From the NCBI GenBank assembly GCA_024276305.1, contig JAJRXK010000040.1:1-64000 (forward strand): a stretch of DNA of 64,000 nucleotides. Reading direction: 5' to 3'. Numbering within the stretch: position 1 is the first letter of the stretch; every line of letters begins with the position of its first letter. The DNA is from Candidatus Krumholzibacteriota bacterium (GTDB lineage: Bacteria; Krumholzibacteriota; Krumholzibacteriia; JAJRXK01). The notes beneath the pieces are model-generated. The model did not search any database. It saw only the letters and a list, made by a program, of their open reading frames with translations, and was not told where the DNA came from. The position numbers and the translations under genes are program-made. Shown here piece by piece: positions 14,742 to 43,598 of the stretch.

Positions 14742-14931
14742 GAATTGCTCCTTCGAATGAATGAATCGTACCCAACTCTTCGGAGGACCGCCCCGGAATC
14801 CCAGGATCCAGGGGCTCGGCCAGGCGCTGGGATGGGTTCGGATCCCGGGCGACGAGAGGCTGAACGCTCTTTTCCCCGAAAATCGTGGCCAGATGGCTGC
14901 GAAATCTCCGGAAATCGTCTATACTCGGTCC
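14742..14931. other. Intergenic region between the divergent secreted-protein gene and metK leader
   Basis: No gene is supported here. A TATACT box at 14920-14925 fits a -10 element that would start transcription near 14932 towards metK; no convincing -35 element is visible. Both strands have short open frames that look like chance. Confidence 0.4.
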
Positions 14932-15110
14932 GACTGTGGTGATTTGAAGCGACAGCTTGCACGCCACGTAAAAAAAGGTGCTAAAGCGTCTGGGCGAAGG
15001 TTGGTTCCAACTCACCGCGTCCCCCGCTCGCACCGCGTCGGGGGCTTTCTTGTGCCCAATCGGACTTCTTCTGCCGACGCGTGAACTCTGTTAGATATGG
15101 AGGCTCGAGA
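14932..15110 (+). promoter_or_regulatory. Structured metK leader with terminator-like hairpin, candidate riboswitch
   Basis: From the inferred transcript start the leader can fold into several helices. GTGG (14936) pairs with CCAC (14964), enclosing AAGC-GACA-GCTT (14947-14958). An A7 run is followed by GGTG (14977) pairing with CACC (15013), enclosing GTTG-GTTC-CAAC (15000-15011). Then CCCCCG (15021-15026) pairs with CGGGGG (15039-15044), followed by CTTTCTT, which looks like an intrinsic terminator. CACCGCGT occurs twice, at 15013 and 15031, so the 3' side could form alternative pairings. A terminator before a methionine adenosyltransferase gene suggests SAM-responsive attenuation. I do not recognise the consensus of SAM-I, SAM-II, SAM/SAH or SAH classes. 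GGAGG lies before the metK ATG. Confidence 0.5.
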
Positions 15111-37648: not shown

Positions 37649-39142
37649 TCAAGCCGGCCAACTCATGTCCTGGTCCAACGGAAAAATGGGCCTGGGCACG
37701 TTCCGGTAGGGCAGACGTTCATAGTGCAGGGTGCAAAGAGCGCCGCTGTCGCAGATGATGATTTTCCCTGCGATGGGTTCGAAAGCCGCGCGAAAATGCT
37801 GCATCGACTTCAGGGCAATGACGTGCTTGCAACTGGGATCGATGCCGAAGGACTTGAACTGCTGCAGGTCGAGTATCTGTTTGGGAATCGTGACGATCAG
37901 GATCTCAATGCCACCCACCCGCACCACCGCGCTGGGACCGAAGGAGCGGGATAGTCCGCCGAGGATGGCTCCGTCTCCCACGTAGTGGCCGTCGCTGATC
38001 AAGAGCAATTCGCCTTCGAGGGTCAGTGGACCGCCGCCGAATTCGGGGTCGATCTTGCCTCCGAGAACAATCCGAACCTGTTCCCCGACCTTGGCCTTGT
38101 GGAGGGTCCGAGCCGCTTCCCCATCCACCATCGGCCCGAAACAAGCATTTTGCACCTTCGCCTCGAGGAGCGCGCCAAGCAATGCGGTGGAGTCGCCGTA
38201 GCCGCCTGCTCCCGGATTGTCGGCGTAGTCGGCAATCACGAGTGGTCCATCACGGGAGTCGAAGTCGGTGGCAGCGGCCGCGGCGGCCTCAACGGTGAGG
38301 TATTCGCTCAGCACCTCATGGCGTCGTGACCAGATGTCGTCGGCCAGGGTGTTGGCAAAGGCAAAATGCTGGTCGAAATCGCCCTGGCCGGTGACGAGAA
38401 CGGTGGGTCCGACATCCGAAACATCCGTACTCGCAAAGCCTGCGTTGATGCTGACCGCGAAGACGTCGTCTCGAGTTTCGTAGTTCTTGGCGGCTGCGAT
38501 GCGAGCGATCATCGGGCCGGCATCAGTGCGCCCTCCATTGGCTTCTTCCAGCATCGGGCGACTCACACAGATTGTTTTCGGTGTGATTTCTCCAGCCATC
38601 GTTCGCTGCAGAATCGCACCGGCCCGACGACCGGTTTCGCGCATGTCGATATGCGGGTAGGTCCGAAAGGAAACCAGAATGTTGGCGAGCGAACACATCG
38701 CTGAACCGACATTCGCATGGAGATCGAGGGTGACGGCGATCGGAACCTCGCTTCCGCACGAGGCTCGAACGCGGCGCAAGATTTCGCCGTCGCCGTCCTC
38801 ACAGAAATCAAGGACCATCGCGCCATGCAAGGCGAGGAGAATGCCATCGAAGTGACCACGCTCGATTGCGGCGACGATCGGATCACAAAGCCATTCGAAC
38901 GCGGCGCGTCTTACCTTGCCGCTCGGTGCCGCAGCCGCGCTGAGGACGTGTTCGATGTTCCAGCCGTGCTTCTGCCCCGCATCGAGGAATCCGGCCAGCT
39001 CGGTATTGGCCTCGCAGCGAGCGGCAATGGCATCCTCTCCGATCAGAACGTAGCGGTCCTCGAACGCCTGTCTGTCGGTCACCAGCCGACTGAAGGTGTT
39101 CGTCTCATGCGCGAGTTCTGCGGTGAGGACCCGAAATGTCAC
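37649..39142 (-). CDS. M81 family metallopeptidase (MlrC-like)
   Basis: 497 residues from GTG at 39142, which has CGGAG about 8 bases upstream and puts 'FRVLTAELAHETNTFS' at the N-terminus, as in the family. The longer open frame upstream has no support. Zinc-site regions are visible: AHETNTF near the start, 'VTLDLHANV' in the middle and 'HIDMRETGRRAG' later. MlrC of Sphingomonas degrades linearised microcystin; most members have unknown substrates. Family length is about 490-500. The reading frame seems richer in A and T than its neighbours, which may mark acquisition by transfer. It is divergent from dinB. Confidence 0.85.
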   Translation of the reverse strand: MTFRVLTAELAHETNTFSRLVTDRQAFEDRYVLIGEDAIAARCEANTELAGFLDAGQKHGWNIEHVLSAAAAPSGKVRRAAFEWLCDPIVAAIERGHFDGILLALHGAMVLDFCEDGDGEILRRVRASCGSEVPIAVTLDLHANVGSAMCSLANILVSFRTYPHIDMRETGRRAGAILQRTMAGEITPKTICVSRPMLEEANGGRTDAGPMIARIAAAKNYETRDDVFAVSINAGFASTDVSDVGPTVLVTGQGDFDQHFAFANTLADDIWSRRHEVLSEYLTVEAAAAAATDFDSRDGPLVIADYADNPGAGGYGDSTALLGALLEAKVQNACFGPMVDGEAARTLHKAKVGEQVRIVLGGKIDPEFGGGPLTLEGELLLISDGHYVGDGAILGGLSRSFGPSAVVRVGGIEILIVTIPKQILDLQQFKSFGIDPSCKHVIALKSMQHFRAAFEPIAGKIIICDSGALCTLHYERLPYRNVPRPIFPLDQDMSWPA

Positions 39143-39463
39143 TGGTGAGCTCCGTGAGGTGAGAATGCCGGGAGGTTCGAGACCTGGTGCTCCGATAGTA
39201 GTTTGTCCCTTGTCTGTGTCCAGACTTTCCCCTTCCCCTCGTCGTCCGAAGGTGCCCACACCGCAGGCCGGGGCCCATCGAGGTCGCTAACCTACATTGT
39301 GACAGCATATTCCATGGTTTTTCCCCGCCCCTGGCATCTTTGCCCTTGCCCCCCAAACAAATGACGCCTATCTTCTGCTCCAGACCAAACGCTTGTTTCG
39401 GTGACCCGAACTGGGACGGGTTCTCAGAGGCCCCACCGACGAGGAAGAAAAGGAGGATCGTCC
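39143..39463. other. Divergent intergenic region between the M81 gene and dinB
   Basis: About 320 bases without a supported gene. It holds a LexA-box-like palindrome (39386-39399), a second short inverted repeat GAACTGGGACGGGTTC (39408-39423, arms GAAC/GTTC, 8-base spacer) and the AGGAGGA ribosome site of dinB (39451-39457). The part near 39290-39330 is relatively A+T-rich and may hold the M81 promoter. Confidence 0.5.
39386..39399 (+). promoter_or_regulatory. Candidate LexA operator of the dinB-lexA operon
   Basis: CAAACGCTTGTTTC matches 12 of 14 positions of the B. subtilis-type SOS box CGAACRNRYGTTYC. Its core is the perfect inverted repeat AAAC-GCTT-GTTT. It lies 65 bases before the dinB start. 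The LexA encoded at the end of this operon has a helix-turn-helix close to the Gram-positive type, which makes this box type plausible. Confidence 0.55.
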
Positions 39464-40750
39464 ATGCGCGCACGTTACTTTGCCCACGTCGACATGGACG
39501 CCTTCTACGCTTCGGTCGAGGTCCTCGATCGTCCCGAGCTCTCGGGGCTTCCGGTGGCGGTGGGGGGCAAGCCGGGCGAGCGAGGGGTCATTGCAGCCGC
39601 CTCCTACGCCGCCCGCACCTTCGGTGTGCACAGCGCCATGCCCACCGCCCAGGCTCTGCGACTCTGCCCCGAACTGATCCTGCTCCCCGGGCGCATGGCC
39701 CGCTACCAGGAGCTGAGCGAGCAGATCATGCAGATCCTCCGCGATCAGTGTCCTGCGGTCGAGCCGCTCTCCCTCGACGAGGCCAGCCTCGACCTGAGTG
39801 GGTGCGCTCGGCTGCATGGGGTCGACGAAGCGGTCGACGGCGGCCACAAAGGATGGACCCGTTTCGCACAGGCGCTGCAGCACCGCATCCACACCGAGAC
39901 CGGTCTGTGGGCATCGGTGGGCTTGGGCGAGACTCGGCGCATTGCCAAGATCGCCAGTGACCACCGCAAGCCGGCCGGAGTGGTGGTGGTGGTGCGCGGG
40001 GAGGGCCGTGACTTCCTCGCCGACCTACCGATCGAGAAGCTTCGGGGAGTGGGCCCCAAGATGGCCGAGCGTCTGCGTAGGCAAGGCTTCCGACGCGCTC
40101 GGGACATCGCGTCCACTCCCCGAACCCAACTCCAACAGTTGTTCGGCAAGGCGGGATCGGCGCTGCTCGACATGGTCGAGGCCCGCGATTTGGGAGGGGT
40201 GCATCCCGATCGTCGCGAGAAGAGTGTGGGGCGCGAAACCACATTTGCGCGTGACCTCGTGGGCATGGCCGCCCTCGAGCCCGTTCTCTCCCGACTGAGC
40301 GAAAATGTCGCGCGGCGTCTACGCAAGCGTTCCCTGCAGGGACGCGTGATTCAGCTCAAGATTCGCGACCGCGGATTCCATACCTTCACCCGCCGGCATT
40401 CCATGACCACCCCTACGGATTCTGCGCCGCGGATCCGGGACGAAGCCCTGCGCCTGCTCCGTGCCATGCAGTGGGAACAGGTCCCAGTGCGTCTGATCGG
40501 AGTGACCGTCTCGGGCCTGACCGAATCCCGCGCGGTCCAGGGGGAGCTCTTCGCCACCGACGAAGAGCGCCGTCAACCGGGCATCGATCGCATCGTCGAC
40601 GCAATTCACGACCGATTCGGCTCGAACGCTTTTCTCCGGGGGCGAAGCCTGCTCGCCACTGGAGTGGACCGTACTCCCTGGGGAGCCACACTCTCCCCCT
40701 CCGGCCCTGGGTCCGGCCGACTGGATTCCTCCGAAAGGATTTCCCAATGA
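39464..40750 (+). CDS. dinB: DNA polymerase IV (Y-family, DinB)
   Basis: 428 residues from the ATG at 39464, directly after AAAAGGAGGATCG. Catalytic carboxylates lie in HVDMDAFYASVE (about 5-16) and SLDEASLD (about 103-110). A helix-hairpin-helix region ('LPIEKLRGVGPKMAERL') and the little-finger domain follow. Near residue 365 'QGELF' fits the beta-clamp-binding pattern QxxLF. The polymerase makes error-prone, lesion-bypass DNA synthesis and is normally under SOS control. Its stop overlaps the next gene by four bases, and that gene overlaps lexA the same way, so its repressor is made from the same transcript. The C-terminal 60 residues are extended and low in complexity. Confidence 0.94.
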   Translation: MRARYFAHVDMDAFYASVEVLDRPELSGLPVAVGGKPGERGVIAAASYAARTFGVHSAMPTAQALRLCPELILLPGRMARYQELSEQIMQILRDQCPAVEPLSLDEASLDLSGCARLHGVDEAVDGGHKGWTRFAQALQHRIHTETGLWASVGLGETRRIAKIASDHRKPAGVVVVVRGEGRDFLADLPIEKLRGVGPKMAERLRRQGFRRARDIASTPRTQLQQLFGKAGSALLDMVEARDLGGVHPDRREKSVGRETTFARDLVGMAALEPVLSRLSENVARRLRKRSLQGRVIQLKIRDRGFHTFTRRHSMTTPTDSAPRIRDEALRLLRAMQWEQVPVRLIGVTVSGLTESRAVQGELFATDEERRQPGIDRIVDAIHDRFGSNAFLRGRSLLATGVDRTPWGATLSPSGPGSGRLDSSERISQ

Positions 40751-42123
40751 TTTCCCGGTGCCCCACTCCTCTGGCCAATCTCGTCTACGTGCGAGCGAAT
40801 CACCCTCGCCTCCCGGAGCTTCTCCGCCAACGCCGTGGCGACGCTTTGGTGGTCGAATGCACGTCGAGTGGACGGGGAACCTACGCCCTCCTCGGCGCGG
40901 CGGAAGCGAAGCAGCGAGTCCTTTTTCCCGCTCGCTGGCTCTCCGCACGTCTCAGCTCCGCCCACGAAATCTCTCATGAGAGCCGGCTCCTCGCATTTGC
41001 CCGCGGGGACGCATCGCTGCAGCGCTTGCTCGACGAATCGGCCAATGAAGTTTCGACGGCGGGAATGGCACGCCCTGACGAACCCCTCGTGTTGCTGGGC
41101 GTTCCCTCGGACGTGATCTGGGGTTCGGGGAGCAATTCGCTCCACGAGACCCGCCGCCGCGCCGAAGTTTGGATCGATCGTTTGGGGCGAGACCGGGTAG
41201 CCCTGGCCGTTCCCGTGGGCGACATGGACCATCCTCTGGCCCAGCTTGCTCGTGAACGAGACCTGCCCTTGGTGACCTTGGTCGATGCCGATGATTCGAT
41301 GGTCGAGGAATTGCCTCCCGGTGGAGGAGATGTTCCTCTGCTGTGGACCGATTTCCACCTCGACCGTGAGCATCGACTTCCCGATGATGCCTATGTTCCG
41401 GGCCTACAGGATCTCTTGCGTCGCGGAAGTTTGGTTCGTGAGCGAAGGCTCTACGACCATCTACCGCAGGAGTGGCAGGAGCTTGCGGTGCACGAGTTGA
41501 GGGCCCTTCATCAGTGGCACCTCGGTCCGATGTTGCGTCGTCTAGCGGCATTGGTGCAGACCATGTCGCCGTTGACGGGAGCCGATGTGGCTCCGCTCTT
41601 TCCCTCTCTCGAGGGAGTGTGTGCGTATCTGCTCGGGCTCACGGACCGGCGACCCACTGCGCAACTCGATGCGGCCGTAAGTGCGCGGGCTCTGGCCTCT
41701 TCGCTGACCGCTTTCGATCGCCAGGTGGTGGTGAGTGTGACCCAAGCCGGACGTCGGGCTCTGCTCCAACGCCTGTCGACCTGGGCCGAAGGCGGGCATC
41801 TTGCGGTCTGTGGTCAGGAGACGGAAGGGGACGGGACCCTCCGCTTCTGCTTCAGTGGGCAGCCGCTCTGGTCCCGAGCTCGTCTGGAATTGGGAAGGGG
41901 GGGATTTCCCCGCGTGCATCTCGACCTCGATGATCGGCGGGCTTTGGGTTGGTTCGAACTGAGGGTCGTGCCGCAGGTCGCGCTGCACGAATCAGCCTCG
42001 TCGGCGACTTCCGCCGCGGAGGTCCACGAGCTCTTCGGGGTCAAGGATGCCCCCTCCCCGCAATTGTCCTTCGATCTCGAAACATCGTCCTTTTCCGCGG
42101 ATCGCGAAGTGAGGCAAGCATGA
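40747..42123 (+). CDS. Unknown protein between dinB and lexA with a clamp-binding-like tail
   Basis: 458 residues; not a family I recognise. The start (ATGA overlap with dinB) and stop (ATGA overlap with lexA) tie it to SOS genes on both sides. The N-terminal 200 residues look alpha/beta; parts such as 'SRLLAFARGDASLQRLL' and 'LGRDRVALAVPVGDMDHPLAQLARERDLPLV' recall the PHP domain of DnaE-type polymerases, but the HxH metal motif is absent, so this is a weak hint. Near the C-terminus 'PQLSFDLE' resembles the E. coli DinB clamp peptide QLVLGL. No signal peptide or membrane helix. By position it resembles ImuA in lexA-imuA-imuB cassettes, but I see no RecA-like Walker motif. Confidence 0.7.
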   Translation: MISRCPTPLANLVYVRANHPRLPELLRQRRGDALVVECTSSGRGTYALLGAAEAKQRVLFPARWLSARLSSAHEISHESRLLAFARGDASLQRLLDESANEVSTAGMARPDEPLVLLGVPSDVIWGSGSNSLHETRRRAEVWIDRLGRDRVALAVPVGDMDHPLAQLARERDLPLVTLVDADDSMVEELPPGGGDVPLLWTDFHLDREHRLPDDAYVPGLQDLLRRGSLVRERRLYDHLPQEWQELAVHELRALHQWHLGPMLRRLAALVQTMSPLTGADVAPLFPSLEGVCAYLLGLTDRRPTAQLDAAVSARALASSLTAFDRQVVVSVTQAGRRALLQRLSTWAEGGHLAVCGQETEGDGTLRFCFSGQPLWSRARLELGRGGFPRVHLDLDDRRALGWFELRVVPQVALHESASSATSAAEVHELFGVKDAPSPQLSFDLETSSFSADREVRQA

Positions 42124-42779
42124 ATGATCGCGTGCAGGAATTGAGTCCACGGGGGCGTGAGATCTTCGCTGCGCTCAGTCGGTGGATGCGGGACAACGCC
42201 TATCCCCCGACCATTCGGGAGCTGGGGGCAGAGGTCGGTCTGTCGAGCACCCGCACGGTTTCGGACTATTTGAAGACCTTCGAGAGTTTGGGGCTCATCC
42301 GTCGCCATCGGAATTCGTCGCGAGCGATCGAGCTTCTGGTCGATGCTTCAGAGGCCATTGGGCCTTCGGAGGTCGCCGAGGTTTCGTTCACCGATCGTGT
42401 GCAGATTCCGATTGTTGGGGAGGTGGCGGCGGGGAGCCCCATTCTCGCAGCAGAGAATCTGGATGGCTCACTCGAACTCGATGCGACGATGGTGCGAGAT
42501 TCACGGTCGTATTTTCTGCGGGTGCGGGGGGAGTCGATGATCGAGGCTCACATTTGCGACGGCGACTTGGTGCTGATCCAACCTCAACAGGAAGCCCGCA
42601 ATGGTGAGATCGTAGTGGTGATGATCGACGACGAAGTCACCCTCAAGCGCTTCTACCGGCGGGAAGGTTATCTCGAGCTGCGTCCGGAGAATTCCAAGAT
42701 GGCTTCGATCATCGTCACTCCGGAAATGGGGGAAGTCCGGGTGCTGGGTCGTCCGGTCGGGGTGTGGCGCACTCTCTAG
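42120..42779 (+). CDS. lexA: LexA repressor
   Basis: 219 residues. N-terminal winged helix-turn-helix: 'PPTIRELGAEVGLSSTRTVSDYLKTFESLGLIRR', close to the B. subtilis pattern. The self-cleavage site is Ala-Gly in GEVAAGSP. The catalytic Ser139 (RGESMIEA) and Lys176 (TLKRF) are 37 residues apart, as in E. coli LexA. It represses SOS genes until RecA filaments trigger its cleavage. It is the last gene of the dinB-unknown-lexA operon and so probably controls itself through the palindrome before dinB. tRNA-Glu follows. Confidence 0.96.
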   Translation: MNDRVQELSPRGREIFAALSRWMRDNAYPPTIRELGAEVGLSSTRTVSDYLKTFESLGLIRRHRNSSRAIELLVDASEAIGPSEVAEVSFTDRVQIPIVGEVAAGSPILAAENLDGSLELDATMVRDSRSYFLRVRGESMIEAHICDGDLVLIQPQQEARNGEIVVVMIDDEVTLKRFYRREGYLELRPENSKMASIIVTPEMGEVRVLGRPVGVWRTL

Positions 42780-42884: not shown

Positions 42885-42961
42885 GGCCCCATCGTCTAGT
42901 CAGGTCAGGACACCACCCTTTCAAGGTGGGTACACGGGTTCGAATCCCGTTGGGGCTACCA
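42885..42961 (+). tRNA. tRNA-Glu, anticodon UUC
   Basis: The acceptor GGCCCCA pairs with TGGGGCT (a G-U first pair). The D-arm has GTCTAGTCAGGTCAGGAC, the anticodon stem CCACC/GGTGG encloses CTTTCAA (anticodon TTC), and the T-arm is ACGGG-TTCGAAT-CCCGT. CCA is encoded. It lies about 105 bases after lexA. Confidence 0.95.
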
Positions 42962-43133: not shown

Positions 43134-43598
43134 ATGCCGTGCTTCTTCGGAAAGGGTGGCTCCCCCTTGGAAGAGACCATCGAATGGACGCCCGCCATGA
43201 GCGTGGGGGTCCCGTTGCTCGATGAGCAACACCAACGGATTGTATCCATCATCAACTACTTGGTGGCGGCCAAGGGTCCGCGCATCAGTGCGGATGCGGT
43301 CGATGTGGCGTTGGTGCAACTTCGACGCTTTGTCGATGAGCATTTCCGCGATGAAGAACTGATTCTGGAAGAATGCGGATATCCGGCTCTCGCGGAGCAC
43401 CGGCAGGAGCATCGGGAATATCGAGCCCGCCTGGCAGAGCACTCTCGACGTGCGCTGGGAGGAGAGGAGCTGATGTCCGATGAGTTGGTTCACTTCGTGA
43501 GGGAGTGGTGGGAAGGACACATTCTGGGAGAGGACCGGAAGTATTGCGCCTTTCTTTCGTCCACAGATGCGAAGAGCAGAGGGTCCGACTCCGGGTGA
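43134..43598 (+). CDS. Bacteriohemerythrin
   Basis: 154 residues. All seven ligands of the oxygen-binding di-iron site are visible: His33 (EQHQR), His70 and Glu74 (HFRDEE), His89 and His93 (EHRQEHRE), His129 and Asp134 (GHILGED), with the family's spacings. The protein should bind O2 reversibly in the cytoplasm and may serve oxygen storage, sensing or supply to oxidases. The ATG at 43134 gives a slightly long N-terminus; an internal TTG or the start of 'ETIEWTPAM' may be the true one. A TTGACA box at 43102 may be part of its promoter. It stands alone. Confidence 0.88.
   Translation: MPCFFGKGGSPLEETIEWTPAMSVGVPLLDEQHQRIVSIINYLVAAKGPRISADAVDVALVQLRRFVDEHFRDEELILEECGYPALAEHRQEHREYRARLAEHSRRALGGEELMSDELVHFVREWWEGHILGEDRKYCAFLSSTDAKSRGSDSG

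Follow-up and report, generated by a model that had tools for sequence, protein, structure and literature searches.

A LexA-linked operon of Krumholzibacteriia pairing DNA polymerase IV with a probable truncated, dead relative of the replicase DnaE

Inactive Y-family polymerases such as ImuB are well-known components of the SOS mutagenesis machinery. According to the available parts of PMC12926913, PMC3919608 and PMC6511836, known cassettes join an active DnaE2 to Y-family proteins that are either dead or active, and the C-family polymerases are sorted into the DnaE1, DnaE2, DnaE3 and PolC groups (PMC12926913, PMC3919608). The same portions of these three sources describe no inactive C-family group. 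Phrase searches of the literature for an inactive DnaE paralogue similarly returned no such family, an absence within the reach of the search and not a proof. Within these sources, dead C-family polymerases appear to have been undescribed until now.

The dinB-X-lexA locus and its putative operator

The window analysed is a 64-kb stretch of DNA (64,000 nucleotides) from a Candidatus Krumholzibacteriota bacterium of the class Krumholzibacteriia. Three ORFs follow each other on its plus strand: dinB (39464-40750; ATG at 39464, TGA at 40748-40750), a gene encoding a protein of 458 aa here called X (40747-42123; ATG at 40747, TGA at 42121-42123), and lexA (42120-42779; ATG at 42120, TAG at 42777-42779). 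The dinB/X and X/lexA junctions are both ATGA, a 4-base overlap, and the coordinates of the first-pass annotation, which had described a dinB-unknown-lexA series with such overlaps, are exact. That start and stop codons overlap does not imply the fixed stoichiometry of the products that it had deduced. The dinB start is preceded by a strong ribosome-binding sequence, AAGGAGG.

DinB and LexA are both typical of their families. DinB (428 aa) is a Y-family polymerase (Pol IV), matching Pfam IMS (2.7e-46) and IMS_C (9e-30) and NCBIfam DNA polymerase IV. D10 and the SLDEA acidic pair of the active site are present at the motif positions. A beta-clamp-type motif, QGELF (40538-40552, plus strand), is followed by a RecA-NT-like stretch at the tail, and reads QGDLF in the related genomes G001 and G003; the consensus QxxLF and the RecA-NT motif were taken from the available parts of PMC12926913 and PMC6511836. 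LexA (219 aa; TIGR00498, 2.1e-59; Peptidase_S24, 6e-34) features a DNA-binding domain, an Ala-Gly cleavage site and the Ser/Lys catalytic pair, residues 103, 137 and 174 corresponding to AAGSP, GESM and TLKRF. A tRNA-Glu(UUC) gene (42885-42961, plus strand) lies just 3' of lexA. The operon is flanked by a gene for a M81/MlrC-type metallopeptidase (37652-39259, minus strand) and by a bacteriohemerythrin gene (43134-43598, plus strand), and nothing points to either neighbour being a member of the operon. Elsewhere in the window (14926-15005, plus strand) a SAM_alpha riboswitch was identified (Rfam RF00521, 45.4 bits); the family is named for Alphaproteobacteria, and is found here in a Krumholzibacteriota genome.

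The palindrome CCAAACnnnnGTTTC sits 65 bases 5' of dinB, where the putative LexA operator CCAAACGCTTGTTTC (39385-39399, plus strand) is an exact pattern match conserved in the family hosting the window (f1). CCAAACnnnnGTTTC has a single exact match within the window; its looser form has three matches in the 3.5-Mb genome, and a control pattern has none. CCAAACnnnnGTTTC or a one-base variant is found 5' of the operon in 4/4 genomes of the family. The looser pattern MCAAACnnnnGTTTS has 2-3 matches each in the window genome (G000), G001 and G002, and 19 matches in G003, versus 4 for the control. Sites of this type are also located 5' of the imuA-imuB-dnaE2 genes in G001 and 5' of recA in G003. 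The lexA-linked promoters read were those of families f1, f2, f3 and f4. Outside the window's family, loci with a link to this lexA have related promoter elements, placed between likely -35 and -10 boxes: CTATACnnnnGTATAG in f4 and one f3 genome (G026), CTGTACAAAnGTTTAG in two other f3 genomes (G035 and G047), and a more irregular form, CTAAAC..., in f2. The box is a candidate binding site for LexA, which would sit on the operator 5' of dinB and keep the operon off. Upon DNA damage LexA would cleave itself, and one mRNA would give active DinB, X and fresh LexA.

Nature of the middle protein

Searches of Pfam, NCBIfam, PHROGs and PDB sequences gave no match for X. When the profile of four X proteins was compared by hhalign to that of 49 DnaE-type sequences, a score of 53.3 was obtained (E 1.3e-5, 228 collinear columns). 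In 200 column shuffles the score reached at most 24.7, the reversed profile 23.2, and the decoys DinB, LexA and ImuB 17.8-23.6. Residues 75-307 of X (40969-41667, plus strand) are collinear with a DnaE region that runs from the latter half of PHP into the beginning of the palm. Taken separately, residues 110-200 and 200-310 also reach significance, at the right places and in order, with sub-region scores of 33.4 (shuffle maximum 23.7) and 51.7 (shuffle maximum 21.1). The N-terminal 110 residues and residues 305-415, separately compared by hhalign, are not significantly DnaE-like; the palm2 part falls at the correct DnaE position, is not significant, and is missed by a profile made only of the dead DnaEs described below. 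The AlphaFold2 model of X is of low confidence (pLDDT 57) and was built from four sequences only; its nine best PDB matches in Foldseek are all C-family polymerases (best E 2.4e-7). With the model of the G001 orthologue (pLDDT 51), PolIII alpha ranks first to eighth (E 3e-3 to 4e-2).

The catalytic motifs PD.D.DF and K.D.LGL are absent by eye at the collinear positions of X, in a tract where the alignment is weak. The fingers and HhH domains, for which no Pfam match was found in X, are missing; the protein is too short for them, its sequence stopping beyond the palm-like portion. Near its C-terminus X carries a hexapeptide, QLSFDL (42061-42078, plus strand), which reads QLPLGL, QLALGL and QLELDL in the other three genomes, QL being invariant and the surrounding tail variable. 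Hexapeptide beta-clamp motifs of this type are known from E. coli Pol IV. The chance of finding such a motif is about 0.002-0.003 per protein. X is a candidate clamp-binding protein. Its genetic context and its homology to DnaE/PolIII alpha are well supported. X is read as a truncated, catalytically dead homologue, and its biochemical role is surmised.

The middle protein, unknown to the first-pass annotation, is not ImuA. No NCBIfam ImuA or Pfam RecA match was found, hhalign scores to ImuA and RecA were 11.7 and 12.6, at noise level, and X scored 14.0 against the last 170 residues of the ImuB encoded by the same genome. An ImuA/RecA-type or ImuB-C-type protein would be in the expected genomic company, next to lexA and an active Y-family polymerase (available part of PMC6511836), but scores ranging from 11.7 to 14.0 already contradict this reading, which we deem barely conceivable. 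A degenerate RecA Walker-A fold, an idea arising from GGILEWGGQPQGL..., was similarly discarded: the RecA/ImuA comparison gave noise, the structure search led to DnaE, and no RecA fold is among the structure matches listed for X.

X could in principle be the decaying, functionless fragment of a dnaE pseudogene, open by chance inside a lexA operon, given its strong divergence and a length around half that of the dead DnaEs. Such a fragment would hardly stay open in four genomes from three genera, with a mean column identity of 59% and about 100 invariant positions, nor would it keep overlapping starts and stops and a clamp motif in a variable tail. Decay is very improbable, and X is, as judged from the aligned sequences, under constraint.

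Distribution of X and of longer dead DnaEs

Among the 98 relatives searched, X is confined to four genomes, all of the window's own family. The first-pass annotation had suggested looking for the three-gene order in relatives: dinB-X-lexA is found in three of the four genomes (G000, G001 and G003), and recurs in G001 and G003 with junctions that are either 4-base overlaps or a 1-base gap. The G002 locus retains X-lexA alone, and no Y-family gene was found in the whole G002 genome, which is 97% complete. Weak matches of the X profile in G036, G061 and other genomes (E 0.03-0.4) were judged to be fortuitous; scanning genome contigs with the X alignment retrieved two relatives, both already known.

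A PF07733 scan of the class revealed in many genomes a strongly diverged DnaE paralogue, additional to DnaE1 and DnaE2. In families f2, f3, f6 and f7 this protein, of about 930 aa, is encoded in the slot of X, beside the same lexA orthologue and/or the tRNA-Glu(UUC) gene, and lies directly 5' of lexA in f2, in part of f3 and in part of f6. PHP, palm, fingers and HHH domains are all kept according to Pfam. PD.D.DF and K.D.LGL are disrupted in all four families, the f6 proteins retaining the Asp of the second motif, and GPGRGS is missing in f3, f6 and f7. Most f3, f6 and f7 proteins end with a clamp motif (for example QISLFDEE, QLSLFDE or QLELPFE), and f2 proteins have an internal QLELGF/QMELPF. 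The dead DnaE was found in 16/20 f3 and 5/5 f7 genomes; f5 yielded only scores of DnaE1/DnaE2 level, and 18 genomes taken from other parts of the domain had no match above the DnaE1 level. Dead and active DnaEs split in the tree with support 95/97. The PHP metal-site pattern survives in part (HxH; TD.W and TNNDR altered) in f3 and f7 dead DnaEs (L074, L064, L071 and others), which may have a PHP nuclease role. No operator of the type described above was seen at the f3, f6 and f7 copies that have no lexA at the locus.

The tRNA-Glu(UUC) gene is located just 3' of lexA in f1, f2, f3, f6 and one f4 genome, and just 3' of the dead DnaE gene at loci without lexA, and thus trails the locus in f1, f2, f3, f6 and f7. 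LexAs linked to X, to dead DnaEs and to the dinB operon of f4 form one clade (support 91/94), separate from the LexA of imu cassettes and from other LexAs. Because of the shared tRNA position and the single LexA clade, X occupies the slot of the dead DnaE.

The f4 operon (L084, L085, L086, L087) has the order dinB-Y-lexA, with the same lexA orthologue. Y is a small protein of about 200 aa, with a CPGC motif and a clamp-like QTTLF/QTSLF/QIDLF near the N-terminus. No Pfam match was found in the two copies scanned, and the idea of Y as a further reduced X was abandoned, as profile comparison revealed no similarity to X or DnaE. In f3 and f7 (L121, L123, L126, L130) another type of LexA gene adjoins the gene of a Y-family polymerase, in some cases close to a DnaE gene; by its gene layout, this adds one more SOS cassette architecture to the class.

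Possible roles and comparison with known systems

The locus is plausibly a LexA-autoregulated SOS operon for an active Pol IV and a clamp-docked pseudo-replicase, and we regard this as the probable reading, with room for doubt. X would derive from the C-family replicase DnaE, having retained a diminished PHP region and some of the palm, lost catalytic aspartates, fingers and HhH region, and carrying a beta-clamp motif at its end. With this motif and a PHP-palm remnant of the replicase, it probably docks on the clamp. During the SOS response X would most likely occupy or remodel the clamp, where it would displace PolIII alpha or mimic it, and would thereby help DinB or another bypass polymerase to take over the primer end. 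A contact between X and DinB, and an effect on bypass or mutagenesis, are conjectural.

The partnership may be tighter, X being a structural subunit of a DinB mutasome that binds DinB and tethers it to the clamp; this is a tentative view, which we think rather unlikely. In that case DinB-X(-RecA) would be a multisubunit bypass polymerase resembling ImuA-ImuB-DnaE2, with the roles of the polymerase families swapped. In three genomes dinB and X are translationally coupled or one base apart, which would fit, as would the clamp-type motifs in both proteins, the RecA-NT-like tail of DinB and published models in which, in the available part of PMC12926913, the PHP domain of DnaE2 makes a main contact with ImuB. 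However, X persists in G002 without any detectable Y-family gene, and the dead DnaEs of f2, f3, f6 and f7 do not adjoin dinB. Since in these families the equivalent protein is found by lexA without dinB, and G002 has no Y-family gene, X need not work with DinB, and its being an obligate partner is doubtful; a role not confined to DinB is favoured. Of the initial proposal, what stands is that the three genes form a conserved operon of SOS type whose middle product is unusual, and that it is plausibly a distinct translesion module.

A lexA link steadier than the dinB link, along with the DnaE ancestry and terminal clamp motif of X, would also suit an SOS brake on replication: X as a decoy PolIII alpha would rival DnaE1 for the clamp and slow the fork, DinB being a mere neighbour. 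However, X lacks the C-terminal regions that connect PolIII alpha to the other replisome components, and we think the brake rather unlikely. A lexA-linked set of dead replicases, maintained in several families of a single phylum, would mean that cells can convert their replicase into an accessory of the SOS response, and X would be a small natural protein suited to probing the handover of the clamp from replicase to bypass polymerase.

X and the dead DnaEs are homologues of DnaE1, DnaE2, DnaE3 and PolC (PHP and palm, plus fingers and HhH in the long forms), but differ from them by the loss of the catalytic aspartates and by the terminal clamp motif of X and most long forms. Archaeal PolB2, an inactivated B-family polymerase (PMC2527604, PMC8764526), is likewise a polymerase paralogue whose catalytic residues are altered and which has been linked to bypass synthesis; it belongs, in contrast, to the B and not the C family, and, although predicted dead from sequence, proved active in vitro (PMC8764526). 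This caution weighs on the full-length dead DnaEs more than on X, because X has no fingers. The lexA-ImuB-C-PolY operon of the Geobacter sulfurreducens type differs in gene order, as far as the available parts of PMC6511836 and PMC3765255 describe it, and X resembles DnaE and has no similarity to the ImuB C-terminal region.

The closest parallel is the ImuA-ImuB-DnaE2 cassette, which dinB and X had been thought to replace. The same genome hosts on another contig (L021, G000:C54, 2224-8224) a complete, standard lexA2-ImuA-ImuB-DnaE2 cassette of consecutive genes (ImuA NF033429, 6.9e-6; DnaE2 PRK05672, 1348 bits), and the dinB-X-lexA operon is therefore additional, not a replacement. Both are LexA-linked operons featuring active and inactive polymerase homologues and clamp-binding motifs. 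In the cassette, however, the Y-family ImuB is inactive and DnaE2 active, whereas here the catalytic acidic residues of DinB are intact, and it is the C-family member that is dead, truncated and without catalytic regions, true DnaE2 being encoded on the other contig; a RecA-like imuA gene is absent from the operon. It is an evenly balanced proposition that Krumholzibacteriia host a new class of SOS factors, dead C-family pseudo-replicases that would have evolved once, carry a terminal clamp motif in most lineages, and be inherited beside their controlling LexA, with X as the minimal form partnering an active Pol IV, in a mirror image of ImuB-DnaE2.
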